Source: Armatimonadota bacterium
Lineage (GTDB): Bacteria; Armatimonadota; Fimbriimonadia; Fimbriimonadales; Fimbriimonadaceae
Reading direction: 5' to 3'
NCBI GenBank assembly: GCA_020161505.1
Contig: JAIUNY010000002.1
Coordinates: 124,001 to 188,000, forward strand
DNA: 64,000 nucleotides
Translations under genes and position numbers: made by a program
The notes under the pieces: model-generated
The model's input: only the letters and a program-made list of their open reading frames with translations
What the model was told of the DNA's origin: nothing
Databases searched by the model: none
Shown here: piece by piece, positions 13,737 to 28,792 of the stretch
How the letters are laid out: every line of letters starts with the position of its first letter
Numbering within the stretch: the stretch's first letter is position 1

Positions 13737-14662
13737 GCGTCCTCCTGGATCATCTGCTTGACTTTGGCCACGACTTCTGCGGGATCTACCGCGCTTGGGC
13801 CACCCTCAGGACGAAACACGATTGCTCGGTCAAAATTGGGTTTGTATCGCACGGGATCCGTCCATCCAAAGACGGTGAGAGTGGGAACGCCATAGGCGGC
13901 GGCGATATGCGCCGAACCGGTATCCGCACTCAAGTGAACCTGCGAAGAGGCAATTTCTTTCATCGAGCCAACCAAATCGCGCTGCCCCACCAGATTCGTG
14001 CTCCCCGGAAGATCTAGTATGGGATCCCCAGGCGCACCGATGACGGTGACTGGAACCCCGTCAGCAAGCAACCTCCGTCCGATCTCCGTCCAGACCTCGG
14101 GGGCGACCGCCTTCTTCCAGTGCCCGCTCCCGGTCTGGATCGTCACTCCCTGACGTGCCGTGGGAGCGACATCCGGCATGATGGGGAGCACGGGGTTTTC
14201 AAAGGCCACCACCTTTTGAAGCAGCCGTCTCGCCGTCTCGGCCTCATGAACCTGAGTCACGCCGCACTCGACGAAGGTGTTCAGCCGCTTGGCCAGAGCA
14301 TCGGTTCCGCGGTTCGTGAACCTCTGTTTCGCCCCCGAGAGCTTGAGGCAAAGCGCGGTCTTCGAATGCCCTTGGAGGTCAAATCCGAACTCGAAAGTGT
14401 GCTTTCGCAGAGCGGAAAACGCCTTGAGCTGCGCGATCCACGTTCGAGGATCGCTGCGCCGCTTTTTCCAGACCGTTCGATCAACAATAGCAACTTCACT
14501 GACCAGATCCGGAGTCGCAATCACATCCGCACACCGATCCTGCACCGCCCACACGATGTGAGCTTCCGGTGCGGCCTGCCTCAACCCCGAAACCGCCCAG
14601 GCCGCCATCACACAATCGCCAATCGCGGAAAACCGCACGATGAGTACCCGGGGCGCGCTCAA
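13733..14662 (-). CDS. Family 9 glycosyltransferase (heptosyltransferase-like)
   Basis: About 309 aa from a TTG at 14662 that overlaps the upstream stop as TTGA; an ATG at 14692 is the alternative. The N-terminal VLIVRFSAIGDCVMA motif and C-terminal SADTGSAHIAAAYGVPTLTVFGWTDP are the GT9 hallmarks. It is a paralogue of the downstream GT9 but clearly diverged, so the two probably add consecutive inner-core sugars, as WaaC and WaaF do. It is flanked on both sides by 4-nt overlaps. Confidence 0.87.
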   Translation of the reverse strand: MSAPRVLIVRFSAIGDCVMAAWAVSGLRQAAPEAHIVWAVQDRCADVIATPDLVSEVAIVDRTVWKKRRSDPRTWIAQLKAFSALRKHTFEFGFDLQGHSKTALCLKLSGAKQRFTNRGTDALAKRLNTFVECGVTQVHEAETARRLLQKVVAFENPVLPIMPDVAPTARQGVTIQTGSGHWKKAVAPEVWTEIGRRLLADGVPVTVIGAPGDPILDLPGSTNLVGQRDLVGSMKEIASSQVHLSADTGSAHIAAAYGVPTLTVFGWTDPVRYKPNFDRAIVFRPEGGPSAVDPAEVVAKVKQMIQEDA

Positions 14663-18967: not shown

Positions 18968-20542
18968 CTAGAACTCCCCACGGATGAAGTGCTCCATCAC
19001 TTTCGGCACCGAAGGATCGAATCCGACTACATCCAGCATCCCGGGATCCCTCGGATCCGCGATGGTGAACTGGTTCGCCGTCATCGCCACGATGATCAGC
19101 CGAGCATCGATCCCCGACTGGTGACGATACTCACCCAGGGCCTCGCTCGGATGACGCACCCCACACCAGGTTTCGTTGTCGGTCAAAATGACAAACGCAT
19201 CGACCTCCTGCCGATTCTCGGTCGCCCAAATCATCGGCAGAGCACAGTCGGTTGCGCCGAAGTTCGCCCGATCTGCCCGCGCCATCACCTCGGTGATCGT
19301 CATTCCACCGTGGAGACCGAGCGGAACAAGCCGGTCAGAGAACCCGAGCACCTGAGCACTTTCTTCCCGCGCCAGGGTGACCAGGCTCAGAGCCACCGCC
19401 GCCTTTGCTGCACTCAAACCAGACCCGGGGATCAAAGCCGACTTCATCGAGCCGGAAATGTCCAGTCCGATGAGGATGCGCTTTCCCGTCGGAACCACGG
19501 ACTCGAAAGCCAGGTGGAATGCCTCGTTCAGAGCCTGAAGAATCGCCGGAACAGGCATCCATTCCTGTCCCCGACGACCCGTACCTCGTTCGTAGGTCGC
19601 CAGAGCGAGCAAGATCGCCACCGGGTGAATCCTCGCCGCCCGAAGCCGAACCGGATCAGTCAGTGAGGACACCACGTGACGCGTTGCTTCCGCACCCGGC
19701 GTCAGCAACCCGTACCGGGTCATGTTCGCCAGATTCCGAAGCATCGCCGTCAGAGGCATCTTGTCCAGCAAGGCCTCCCACACCATCGGGTGAGTCGCTA
19801 GCTCCTTCGGCACCGCCTCTCGGGGCAGATCAAACGCCCGGATCAGCTTCGCGGCTTCTGACGGTTCGCGCTCGGATTGCAGACGAACAAACGCCTCGAG
19901 CCGAGGGATCGGCACAGCCATCTCGCCGTTGATCAGCCAACGATATACCGCTCCGTGCTCCGCGCTCGCGGGCTTGGGGTGAGCCAGGCGCACGAGGTCA
20001 GCGTGCGTCCACTTCTCCCGATTCCGGTACTTCGTGACCTGGTAAACCAGATCGTCGACTTCCCGCGCGTTGTACCAATCGCTCACCGCTCGCCGAAGTC
20101 CTCGACCCCATCCGCGCAACTCTTCCGATTCCGAAATGAATTGGAAAAGGTGGGTTCCCGTTCGCGCCACCACGGGGAGAGCAGCATAGGCAGCTTGCCG
20201 CGTGTCATCGTTGCCGATGCTCGATGCGAGCGCCAGAGCGAAGAGAGCCGGGCCATTCTTCGGCGCGCGACCTTGACGAGAAATCTTGGCGATCGTGTCC
20301 ACGGCACGCGGACCATCCTCCACCAGAAGCTCGCTGAGATTCTCGGCGCTCTCCTTCGTCGCTCGCTCTTCCGTCGCGTAATAGGTTCCGCCCTCGGTTC
20401 CTAGAATCAGGAACCGTTCGAGCAATGCCCACCGGTCAACGGCCCATACATGGCCGCCCGCGTCGTTCCGCACCTGACCCGCTCCGATGATCGGTGCGGA
20501 TTGCGGGGTCTTCTTTCGCATCAAATGCTTGCTGAACCTCAT
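18968..20542 (-). CDS. rsr: Ro60-like TROVE-domain RNA-binding protein (Rsr)
   Basis: This 524-aa protein is a bacterial orthologue of the Ro60/SS-A autoantigen. The TROVE HEAT-repeat ring covers about residues 30-345 (AVDRWALLERFLILGTEGGTYY at its start, KMPLTAMLRNLANMTRYG near the end). The von Willebrand A domain follows, with the MIDAS motif DISGS at 361-365. In Deinococcus and Salmonella, Ro60 binds noncoding Y RNAs and works with PNPase in RNA decay and stress survival. The ATG at 20542 has AAGGAG 11 nt upstream. The 0.8-kb noncoding stretch upstream holds a duplicated structured element. Confidence 0.95.
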   Translation of the reverse strand: MRFSKHLMRKKTPQSAPIIGAGQVRNDAGGHVWAVDRWALLERFLILGTEGGTYYATEERATKESAENLSELLVEDGPRAVDTIAKISRQGRAPKNGPALFALALASSIGNDDTRQAAYAALPVVARTGTHLFQFISESEELRGWGRGLRRAVSDWYNAREVDDLVYQVTKYRNREKWTHADLVRLAHPKPASAEHGAVYRWLINGEMAVPIPRLEAFVRLQSEREPSEAAKLIRAFDLPREAVPKELATHPMVWEALLDKMPLTAMLRNLANMTRYGLLTPGAEATRHVVSSLTDPVRLRAARIHPVAILLALATYERGTGRRGQEWMPVPAILQALNEAFHLAFESVVPTGKRILIGLDISGSMKSALIPGSGLSAAKAAVALSLVTLAREESAQVLGFSDRLVPLGLHGGMTITEVMARADRANFGATDCALPMIWATENRQEVDAFVILTDNETWCGVRHPSEALGEYRHQSGIDARLIIVAMTANQFTIADPRDPGMLDVVGFDPSVPKVMEHFIRGEF

Positions 20543-20603
20543 GGCTCTGTTTTCTCCTTGGGAATGTCCGGCCCGTCGCTCTTTGCACGGGCGAGTGTCG
20601 AAG

Positions 20604-20637
20604 GGATCCGACCTCCTCCCCTTGCGAGGTCGAATCC
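20604..20637 (-). other. Hairpin in the rsr leader
   Basis: A 12-bp stem (20604-20615 with 20626-20637) and 10-nt loop. On the minus strand the one mismatch becomes a G-U pair, so the structure favours the rsr-sense transcript. No T-run follows, so it is not an obvious terminator. The loop sequence (GCAAGGGGAG) recurs once just upstream. Confidence 0.5.
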
Positions 20638-20739
20638 GAGAGGGTGGCCCCTCCCCTTGCTCTGCCGATCCAGCCACGTGCTTGCGGTCACGAGGCATGG
20701 GGCGGCAGGGCAAGAGGCCAAAGCAACCTCCGCGATTGG

Positions 20740-25066: not shown

Positions 25067-26356
25067 TTGAGGAAGTGGTGGATTTTCTTTGCCGCCGGTG
25101 CGGTAGTCGTCGGATGCGCAGGCGGTAGCGGACTGGGAACAGGAACAACCGGAAGCGGCGCAACAACAGGCGGTGCAACAACGGGCGGAACAACGGGCGC
25201 TGTGCGTTCGGTGCCCCGTGTTGAATTGCCGGGCGATGCCTCCGACGTTCGTGTCGTTTATCTCTCTGGCCAACAGCGACGCGCTGCTGGCTCCCAATAC
25301 GCCAAGCTGAACAACATTCGACTGGCCACGGGCGACGTCGACCAGATCCCTGGATCCGTGCAAGGCACACTCGATGGCGTCAACGTGAAGTTGGATGGCT
25401 ACACGGTGAACAAATATGCTTTTGGTCACACGTTGCCGACCGGTATCCAAGCCGCTCGCTACACCCAGCTTCGCTCCGAAGTCTGGCGACTGGTGGAAGA
25501 ACTCCCGAGCGGTGCCTTTGACACTCTGTTCACTGGCTCCTTCACCCTGCCGAATATCCCTGTTTCGGTTCCCCTCGCCCGCGGACGACAGTCCACCGTC
25601 CAGGTCTTCCTGAACGATGCCGCTCTCTTCCACGATGGCAACAATCTCATTTTCGATGAGACGCTCTTCAACGAAGACAACTTCCTTGATGTCGAGCCCG
25701 CCATCAACGGCTACTTCAGCGATATGGTCAGTTTCGACCTGAGCGGAGTCCCCGCTGGCGAGCGACCGCAAATGCAAAGCGGCGGAAACGCCACCAAGCT
25801 CATGCTGACGGGCGATGCCTGGGGCGTGGCGAATGGCGTCGGCACCGTCGGCTCCTTCGACATCATCAATCCTGGCTTCATCGAGTCGGGCGTTCTCACC
25901 AACCCAGTCGTCCTTCCGGACGGCACGGCTCCTGGAACCTACACGGTTCTCGAACCGGATCCGTCGGTGATCCCACCGACTGTCGTGCAAATCAGCGCCC
26001 TCCAAGGCCTGTGGCGCGACAGCAACGAAGTGCTGAAGAACCTGAGCGCGAACAACATGGTCATCTTCCCGACCACCCGCGCCAATGGTCAACACCAAGT
26101 CGTTGCCTGGAAGCGAAGCGGATCCTCGATCACCAAGATTTGGATCGGCCGAGCCACCCTCACCGGAACCACCAGTGGAACCGTGGAGCTGTGGAGCGCA
26201 GACCAACTTGACAACGGAACCGAGACCGGCAAGGTCACCGGAACCCTCACCAACTTCACCGTCGTCGGTGGAGTGATCAAGGATGGCGACTTCACCTTCA
26301 CCACACCGCCGACCGGCTTTGTGGGCTCGGGTAGTTTCGCTGTCTTCGCGAAGTAA
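25067..26356 (+). CDS. Predicted lipoprotein, first gene of the UBact/proteasome operon
   Basis: 429 aa from TTG 25067, which has AGGAG 6 nt upstream. A basic N-terminus (MRKWW) and hydrophobic stretch end in a lipobox, VVGC, near residue 17. A Gly/Thr-rich linker (about 20-45) then leads to a large domain that looks beta-rich. I do not recognise the domain. The C-terminal third alternates strands and Gly/Thr turns (SKVTGTLTNFTVVGG-like). The stop overlaps the dop start by one base (TAATG), so it is co-translated with dop although exported. This location is unusual for an envelope protein. Confidence 0.72.
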   Translation: MRKWWIFFAAGAVVVGCAGGSGLGTGTTGSGATTGGATTGGTTGAVRSVPRVELPGDASDVRVVYLSGQQRRAAGSQYAKLNNIRLATGDVDQIPGSVQGTLDGVNVKLDGYTVNKYAFGHTLPTGIQAARYTQLRSEVWRLVEELPSGAFDTLFTGSFTLPNIPVSVPLARGRQSTVQVFLNDAALFHDGNNLIFDETLFNEDNFLDVEPAINGYFSDMVSFDLSGVPAGERPQMQSGGNATKLMLTGDAWGVANGVGTVGSFDIINPGFIESGVLTNPVVLPDGTAPGTYTVLEPDPSVIPPTVVQISALQGLWRDSNEVLKNLSANNMVIFPTTRANGQHQVVAWKRSGSSITKIWIGRATLTGTTSGTVELWSADQLDNGTETGKVTGTLTNFTVVGGVIKDGDFTFTTPPTGFVGSGSFAVFAK

Positions 26357-27849
26357 TGCGGCCGATCCTCGCCGGAATTGAAACCGAGTACGGTTTCACC
26401 GTCGAGGGTCGATCCGTCCACGATCAAATAGACGACTCCATGGCCTTCGTCCGGGCATTCCCGGGCGGAGGCCTCTCGCTTTGGGACTACCGTTACGAAT
26501 CGCCTCGCCACGACTTGCGAGGATTTGATGTCAAGGCTCTCGCTTACGATGCCATCGACGCCCGATTCGACCAAGGCCGTGCCCGGCCTCCTGCCGCCGA
26601 AGAGCGCAGCGACCGAGTTCTCACCAATGGAGCCCGGTTCTACAACGACCACGGGCACCCAGAATATGCAACCCCCGAGTGTTTTTCGCTCCGGGAACTC
26701 ATGCTCCACGATCTCGCCGGAGAACGAGTGGTTCTTCAAGCCGCTCGCGCCTTTTCCGAGAAAATCGGGCGCGATGTGCGGGTCTACAAGAACAATACCG
26801 ACTATCACGGCGCCAGCTACGGTACCCACGAGAGCTACCTGGTTCCGCGCCGACACAGTTTCGCCGCACTGTATGAGGCTGTCACCCCACTCTTGATTGC
26901 CCGCCAGGTGGTCTGCGGAGTCGGAAAGGTTGGTGCAGAGGCTAAGGGGCCGGTTCGGTATCAACTCAGCGCGCGGGCCGATTTCATGCAAGAGGCATAC
27001 AACCTCGAAACCCTTGCCCGACGTCCCGTGTTTAACACCCGCGATGAGCCCCACGCTGATCCTGACCAGTGGATTCGGCTCCACGTGATCTGTGGTGATG
27101 CCAATCTGATCCCCTCGGCGACTCGACGCAAAGTCGGGCTCGTCAAGATCGCCTTGCATCTGCTGGATGCGGGGCTGGCTCCCACCTGGCGCATTCCCGA
27201 TCCCGCCGAATCCTTCCAACTCACGAGCCGGGATGCGGACGGAGAGGGTCGAATCGTGCTCGAAGGCATGAACTGGACCACTCCTCGTCAGGTTCTGGAG
27301 AGCTATCTGGACACCTTTGACGGGCTCAATTCGGGAGACGAGGAGCTGAAGAGCGTCGCGCGTGAGACCCGCCAGCTCCTCGAAGATCGAGTCACCCGAC
27401 CAGATGAGTTCCGTCGCCACGTAGACTGGGCCGCCAAGCGGTGGCTTCTCGATCAGTTCCGCGAGGCTGAGGGTCTCAGCTGGTTCGATCCATCCCTGCA
27501 ATCGCTCGATCTGGCGTACCACCTGCTCGACCGCGAAGAAGGACTCTTTTTCGGCTTGGTGGAGGCGGGCGAAGTGGAAGCAGAGATCCCCCTAGAGGAC
27601 GTGATCGAACGCGAAACCCAGGCATTTGAATGGGGTCGTGCGCATGTGCGCGGCCTCGCCGTCGAGAAGTTTGCCCCGCAGATCCGAACACTCACCTGGT
27701 CGAACATCACGTTTTCGGTGGGGGATGATCTTGTCACCGTGCCCTTGTTGCCTGACCTCCGCTACGATCCAGCAAGCCTCGGCGTAGAATCAGTCACAGA
27801 CTTCATTGCCGCAATTCGGTCTGCGAATGCGGCCCACGAAACCTCATGA
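26356..27849 (+). CDS. dop: Deamidase/depupylase Dop, UBact type
   Basis: This 497-aa protein belongs to the Dop/PafA family of carboxylate-amine ligase-like enzymes. It has the metal/ATP-binding GIETEYG (E9, E11), the Dop-type insert WDYRYESPRHDLRGFD (about 43-58), NGARFYNDHGHPEY with the catalytic Asp (D98), YKNNTDYHGASYGTHESYL and NTRDEPHAD. The insert and its context favour Dop over the ligase PafA. Dop turns a C-terminal Gln of the modifier into Glu and removes it from substrates. The next gene encodes a modifier ending in Gln, which fits. Its stop overlaps that gene as ATGA. Confidence 0.92.
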   Translation: MRPILAGIETEYGFTVEGRSVHDQIDDSMAFVRAFPGGGLSLWDYRYESPRHDLRGFDVKALAYDAIDARFDQGRARPPAAEERSDRVLTNGARFYNDHGHPEYATPECFSLRELMLHDLAGERVVLQAARAFSEKIGRDVRVYKNNTDYHGASYGTHESYLVPRRHSFAALYEAVTPLLIARQVVCGVGKVGAEAKGPVRYQLSARADFMQEAYNLETLARRPVFNTRDEPHADPDQWIRLHVICGDANLIPSATRRKVGLVKIALHLLDAGLAPTWRIPDPAESFQLTSRDADGEGRIVLEGMNWTTPRQVLESYLDTFDGLNSGDEELKSVARETRQLLEDRVTRPDEFRRHVDWAAKRWLLDQFREAEGLSWFDPSLQSLDLAYHLLDREEGLFFGLVEAGEVEAEIPLEDVIERETQAFEWGRAHVRGLAVEKFAPQIRTLTWSNITFSVGDDLVTVPLLPDLRYDPASLGVESVTDFIAAIRSANAAHETS

Positions 27850-28028
27850 TCAGTGCCGACCGACAAACTCAACGCGAGCCGGAATCTCCCGAGCGCAAGC
27901 TCGGCGATGGCGATGGCCCCAGCAAACCCGACATCACCCGCCCGACTGTGCCGAACGAGCTCCTGAAGCGGATGAAGAATGTCGACCCCGACCAGGCGAA
28001 GAAGTACCGCCAGCGATCTGGTCAATGA
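27846..28028 (+). CDS. ubact: UBact: Pup-like ubiquitin-analogous protein modifier
   Basis: A 60-aa, highly charged, Pro-rich and probably disordered protein with no cysteine. It ends KNVDPDQAKKYRQRSGQ. The pattern LLKRMKNVDPDQAKKYRQR-[TS]-G-[QE] is the one reported for UBact, the Pup-like modifier of Nitrospirae, Armatimonadetes and related phyla. The C-terminal Gln would need deamidation by the adjacent Dop before ligation to lysines. ATGA overlaps with dop and prcB on both sides make its place in the operon certain. Such genes are easily missed because they are short. Confidence 0.9.
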   Translation: MISADRQTQREPESPERKLGDGDGPSKPDITRPTVPNELLKRMKNVDPDQAKKYRQRSGQ

Positions 28029-28792
28029 GCGACCAGCGCTTGATTGGCGTCCGCCCTCCCGAGGATTTCGCGGAGTTGGTCGGATTTGACCTCGGCTCCG
28101 TGCCCTCGCCCGACGAGCATGTCCACGGCACCACCGTGATGGCATTGCTGTTCGATGGCGGTGCCGTCGTGGTCGCCGACCGACGGGCCACGATGGGGAA
28201 CCTCATCATGTACGAGGCCGCCGAGAAGATTGAAATCCTTGACGACCAAACCGTCGTGGCAATCAGTGGAGCCTACGCCCGGTCGATCGAGGTTTGCCGG
28301 TATCTGAAGCACGCCTTCAAGTATTACGAGCGGCTGAATCAGTTCGAAATTTCGATGGAAGGCAAGCTGATGGAGATTTCTCGGGCGCTTGCCGGGAATC
28401 TGCCGATGGCGATGCAAGGGGGCGTCTTCTTGCCAATCGCCGCGGCATACGACAAGAAGTCAGGAGACTTTGGCGTCTATTTCTTCGACACCGCCGGTGC
28501 CCGATTCATGGGCGCGGATTACGCCACCGCTGGCTCTGGCTCGGAACGTATTCGCGGCGTCTTTGAATACATCGCCCGAGTGAAAGGCCCCTGGCGCACC
28601 CGTCCTCAGGAGGACGTGCTGGTCGATGCCCTCACCATGCTCGATCTTGCTGCCGAGATGGACTCCGCCACCGGAGGCTCCCGCCGAGCCACTCCCAGCG
28701 TGTGCATCCTCACCGCCGAAGGAGCCACCGTTCTCTCCGAAGCCCAGGTCAAAGAAACCCTCGCCAAGCTCCCGGATTCGATGCGGGTTTAG
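28025..28792 (+). CDS. prcB: Proteasome beta subunit PrcB
   Basis: A 255-aa Ntn-hydrolase. A 35-residue propeptide ends in HVHG, and T36 would be the mature N-terminal nucleophile (TTVMALLFDGG). Relative to that Thr1, D17 (ADRRAT) and K33 (EKIEI) are in place, as is the SGS motif. A longer reading to 27806 is rejected because ATG 28025 overlaps the ubact stop (ATGA). The subunit should form the proteolytic beta rings of a 20S-type proteasome. No prcA follows: a terminator and the convergent rpsI gene end the locus. Confidence 0.95.
   Translation: MSDQRLIGVRPPEDFAELVGFDLGSVPSPDEHVHGTTVMALLFDGGAVVVADRRATMGNLIMYEAAEKIEILDDQTVVAISGAYARSIEVCRYLKHAFKYYERLNQFEISMEGKLMEISRALAGNLPMAMQGGVFLPIAAAYDKKSGDFGVYFFDTAGARFMGADYATAGSGSERIRGVFEYIARVKGPWRTRPQEDVLVDALTMLDLAAEMDSATGGSRRATPSVCILTAEGATVLSEAQVKETLAKLPDSMRV

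Follow-up and report, generated by a model that had tools for sequence, protein, structure and literature searches.

The 64,000-nucleotide stretch of DNA analysed here, hereafter the window (G000:C11:124001-188000), belongs to the 3.14 Mb, 99.9% complete genome of a Fimbriimonadaceae bacterium of the phylum Armatimonadota. It carries three consecutive genes on the forward strand, dop (26356-27849, 497 aa), ubact (27846-28028, 60 aa) and prcB (28025-28792, 255 aa). As an earlier note on this DNA had reported, these are joined by ATGA overlaps at 27846-27849 and 28025-28028. The three-gene cluster of that note can be refined by a fourth forward-strand gene (25067-26356), encoding a predicted lipoprotein, whose stop codon overlaps the start of dop (TAATG). 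A consensus search found no promoter for the operon.

The lipoprotein gene begins with TTG, and its beta-rich product has a VVGC lipobox in which G15 and C16 are invariant across 29 aligned homologues. It lies next to dop in 43 of the 80 named loci and in most genomes of the host's own family, and occupies the place that arc takes in other Armatimonadota families. The protein matches no Pfam or NCBIfam family, and its structure model (pLDDT 84.5) has no fold match in the PDB. Elsewhere in the window, a gene on the reverse strand (18968-20713) encodes a TROVE/Ro60-type RNA-binding protein (PF05731, PF25045); no Y RNA was matched by Rfam between window positions 14000 and 34000.

The ubact product, MISADRQTQREPESPERKLGDGDGPSKPDITRPTVPNELLKRMKNVDPDQAKKYRQRSGQ, is a small protein with the C-terminus KKYRQRSGQ. 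The earlier note read it as a charged modifier with a UBact-type end, and proposed a profile search for UBact, Dop, PafA and PrcB, which in the window matched UBact, Dop and PrcB. The 60-aa protein scores far above the cut-offs of both Pfam UBact (PF20513, 4.7e-23, 81 bits against a cut-off of 27.8) and NCBIfam UBact (NF033388, 7.4e-21, 74 bits against 35), while the Pup profile PF05639 gives no match at E-values up to 1. UBact is found above cut-off in 167 of 291 Armatimonadota genomes, so the frame is conserved in relatives, and this conservation and the profile scores together rule out a chance ORF. Among the 80 named loci the C-terminus is RSGQ in 51 and RSGE in 29; the window's RSGQ falls within the pattern R-[ST]-G-[EQ].

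Some genomes of the phylum hold more than one copy. In one Armatimonadota genus, tandem duplicated ubact genes lie between dop and prcB (L222:4103-4442 and L223:4077-4419), the second copy being divergent. We considered whether the extra copies in two genomes (G008 and G009) might be prophages, and rejected this, as the tandem copies are inside the dop-prcB operon. A third copy in another genome (G023) is surrounded by genes of ordinary appearance; it lies on a short contig, and the bin is 6% contaminated. A UBact cluster of the Fimbriimonadaceae type also occurs in a record titled Methanoregulaceae archaeon (L170), probably a mis-binned contig.

The gene upstream of ubact encodes Dop. The 497-aa protein matches PF03136 at 1e-123, scores 338 bits with the Dop model TIGR03688 versus 250 bits with the PafA model TIGR03686, and in a PDB search matches Dop at 3e-78 versus PafA at 3e-49. 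The earlier note had named a placement in PafA as the result that would count against its reading; in a 71-row tree the protein instead falls inside the Dop group, and its paralogue on contig C37 inside the phylum's PafA group, with a separating branch of 100/100. Both features that the note had picked out are present: a Dop-type insert, W-D-Y-x3-S-P-R-x-D-x-R-G-F, lies around residues 43-57 and is absent from 36/36 PafA sequences, and Asp98 aligns with Asp94 of the Acidothermus Dop, a residue thought to activate water (PMC8599861). The N-D-H motif of this catalytic Asp is kept in 100/100 Dop sequences and NTRDEPH in 95/100; within the latter, R229 of the window protein is equivalent to R227 of the Acidothermus enzyme.

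Dop and PafA are homologous, and in some Planctomycetes there are single homologues related to both (PMC7947786). It might therefore be asked whether the 497-aa protein is itself the ligase, or a bifunctional enzyme resembling the common ancestor, with no dedicated deamidase in the organism. We regard this as exceedingly improbable, since the second family member, on contig C37, is PafA-like, and the window protein has both the Dop-loop and a D-H-[GA]-H-P-E motif, besides clustering with Dop. A plain PafA identity is ruled out by the tree and the motifs.

The third gene encodes the proteasome beta subunit PrcB (PF00227, 5.6e-20; TIGR03690, 9.6e-37). The 35-residue propeptide that the earlier note had described is borne out by alignment, residue 36 corresponding to residue 1 of mature mycobacterial PrcB, and counting from there in the sequence gives Thr1, Asp17 and Lys33, as that note had stated.

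The remaining components are encoded elsewhere in the genome, one copy each: a PafA-type ligase (G000:C37:45849-47297, also L007:8850-10298), PrcA (C33:62643-63335) and an ARC/Mpa-type ATPase (C3:41824-43479). The presence of prcA on contig C33 leads us to reject a proteasome without an alpha subunit. The "complete core" of the earlier note thus stands for dop-ubact-prcB and fails for the pathway as a whole, which is complete in the genome and not in the window, since other contigs carry pafA, prcA and arc. The full set of UBact, Dop, PrcB, PafA, PrcA and ARC was found in 17/17 relatives tested. Other Armatimonadota families keep a single cluster in the order arc-dop-ubact-prcB-prcA-pafA (L054-L058; 11 named loci). 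In the Fimbriimonadaceae only dop-ubact-prcB is left clustered, usually preceded by the lipoprotein gene; since the same dispersal is seen in two closed single-contig genomes (G151 and G154), it is not an effect of assembly. The host's proteins score below the NCBI equivalog cut-offs (Dop 338 versus 492, PrcB 127 versus 192, PafA 286 versus 551, PrcA 76 versus 139, ARC 444 versus 505), and are thus divergent from their actinobacterial counterparts.

Taken together, the three genes very probably form the dop-ubact-prcB core of a UBact-proteasome pathway that is complete in this Fimbriimonadaceae bacterium. By homology with the Pup pathway, we infer the following course of events in the host. 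Dop would convert Gln60, the C-terminal residue of UBact, to Glu by deamidation, and could later remove the tag. The unlinked PafA-type ligase would activate the Glu form with ATP and join UBact to lysines of substrates. The ARC/Mpa-type ATPase would then recognise the tagged substrates and thread them into a proteasome built from the unlinked PrcA and the PrcB of the window, for degradation.

The C-terminal residue of UBact provides some evidence on the first of these steps. Of 100 loci, 56 have Gln at this position and 44 have Glu, and on the Dop tree parsimony places 23 changes between the two, at least 16 of them forced by well-supported branches; as all of these loci have dop, the count speaks to both forms coexisting with Dop, and not to loss of Dop after a change to Glu. 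Repeated swaps with Dop always kept are what one would expect of a Dop that deamidates the Gln form and so makes both ends equivalent. The same pattern would also agree with a retained depupylase role for Dop, as has been argued for C. glutamicum (PMC3511204).

The ligase step may differ from the actinobacterial one. Armatimonadota PafA proteins carry a D-x-V-G-[SD]-H motif and have no Dop-loop. At the place of N-T-R-D-E-P, a motif common to Dop and actinobacterial PafA, they have N-P-K, mostly N-P-K-W, in 36/36 distinct sequences (related by descent, so that the count is not one of independent events), and the distance from there to the RLH histidine is the same. The Arg of N-T-R-D-E-P is R227 in the Acidothermus Dop, where it holds the catalytic phosphate (PMC8599861). 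By alignment, then, Lys replaces the phosphate-holding Arg in the Armatimonadota ligases. A separate origin of the phylum's PafA, as drawn by a free tree, is not established: that tree sets a single, partial actinobacterial PafA with a long branch next to actinobacterial Dop, and a joint PafA clade is not rejected (p-AU 0.07). In the host genome pafA is divergent from hrcA (L002:2991-4025), which encodes the heat-shock repressor, and the two genes are also side by side in five of the relatives checked, a hint that the system may be connected with heat shock.

Docking of the ATPase on the core is a second point of difference. Mpa docks by a GQYL terminus, of which Tyr608 contacts PrcA Arg26 (or Glu119) and the carboxylate can contact Lys52 (PMC9599533). 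The C-termini of 37/37 distinct Armatimonadota ARC proteins (including L008:7825-9480) end in [IV][IVLM], with a penultimate Tyr in 0/37 and no GQYL or HbYX motif; the host's own ARC ends in KKSVI. On the side of the core, Lys52 is kept in 45/45 distinct PrcA sequences (Lys48 of the host protein corresponds to Mycobacterium tuberculosis Lys52) and an Arg26 equivalent is present in 0/45. In both proteins the sequences are related by descent, so that the counts do not stand for separate evolutionary events. Next to the ARC C-terminal pair, which is conserved, the linkers vary.

These losses could be taken to mean that ARC works independently of the 20S particle, with UBact conjugated for a non-degradative role such as signalling or storage. 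Pupylation has indeed been kept without a proteasome in some actinobacteria (PMC3511204), and both the Tyr of ARC and the Arg of PrcA have gone. We consider such an arrangement very improbable here, as the translation of prcB is coupled to that of ubact, each of the 17 relatives tested has prcA, and the ARC C-terminal pair is conserved along with an invariant pocket Lys52. The loss of both Tyr and Arg26 with retention of Lys52 suggests instead a dock that has been changed, not lost, and that is altered yet working. ARC would dock directly through its C-terminal aliphatic pair.

The modifier also turns up outside bacterial operons. A scan of IMG/VR revealed UBact-like ORFs that end in YRQRSGQ or YRQRSGE on four contigs, which fall into three kinds, and all three kinds of ORF score above the Pfam and NCBIfam UBact cut-offs. 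The first (L203:5938-6150, the same gene in L207) is flanked by portal and head-morphogenesis genes, and its stop codon overlaps the start of the gene that follows (TAATG). The major head protein of this kind is 80% identical to that of Pseudomonas phage Epa5; in the related phage Ab19, no gene separates portal from head-morphogenesis, and the two adjoin directly. The second (L204:5992-6156) is the same gene in L206, L208 and L209; in L208 and L209 it precedes a gene for a large lectin-domain protein, and terminase genes are present, with an endolysin in L208. The third (L205:2768-3079) follows a Mu-type portal gene. The three kinds of contig are unrelated, and in at least two of them (L203/L207 and L205) ubact is found among head and packaging genes (portal, head-morphogenesis, capsid). 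No dop, pafA, prc or arc was found in the flanking DNA examined. A search of 50,697 GenBank phages found neither Pup nor UBact. No prior report of a stand-alone phage ubact was found in the literature searched, which covered few subscription papers.

The UBact-proteasome system was reportedly first described by Lehmann et al. in 2017, and UBact with a proteasome is an already known kind of system; it is the comparison across the phylum and the phage genes that raise interest in the present case. The locus resembles the known system (PF20513, NF033388) in the R-S-G-Q/E end, the order dop-ubact-prcB and the presence of Dop, PafA, PrcA, PrcB and ARC, but in the Fimbriimonadaceae the cluster is split, with pafA, prcA and arc unlinked and a lipoprotein gene before dop. 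With the actinobacterial Pup-proteasome of Mycobacterium and Corynebacterium it shares homologous Dop, PafA, Mpa/ARC, PrcA and PrcB, the catalytic Asp and a small modifier ending in Gln or Glu. In contrast to that system, the host modifier is not Pup by profile and ends in RSGQ where Pup has GGQ, ARC has an aliphatic pair in place of GQYL, PrcA is without Arg26, and the N-T-R-D of PafA is replaced by N-P-K-W. The pupylation locus of Leptospirillum and the Nitrospirae (PMC3511204, PMC7947786) is likewise a Dop/PafA/proteasome locus of a Gram-negative lineage outside the Actinobacteria; however, it was reported as acquired from Actinobacteria, whereas the Armatimonadota genes are divergent and occur widely across their phylum.

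A bolder reading would tie these observations together, and we give it slightly less than an even chance. The Armatimonadota UBact proteasome would be a distinct branch, with a docking code x-[IV]-[IV]-COO- that is read by PrcA Lys52 after loss of the GQYL Tyr and of Arg26, and with a ligase that has Lys for the phosphate Arg. Phages would exploit this system through stand-alone ubact genes in virion-morphogenesis operons, perhaps tagging or protecting virion or host proteins with the enzymes of the host.

The divergence of the ligase motif, together with an ARC that is without HbYX or GQYL, means that the activities known in Mycobacterium cannot be carried over as they stand. Knowledge of UBact systems comes mostly from sequence, and the Armatimonadota loci offer a clean comparative set, in which the Gln/Glu swaps, the divergent ligase motif and the matched loss in ATPase and core lend themselves to direct tests of non-actinobacterial tagging and docking. 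If functional, the phage ubact genes would suggest that tagging matters in the conflict between phage and host.
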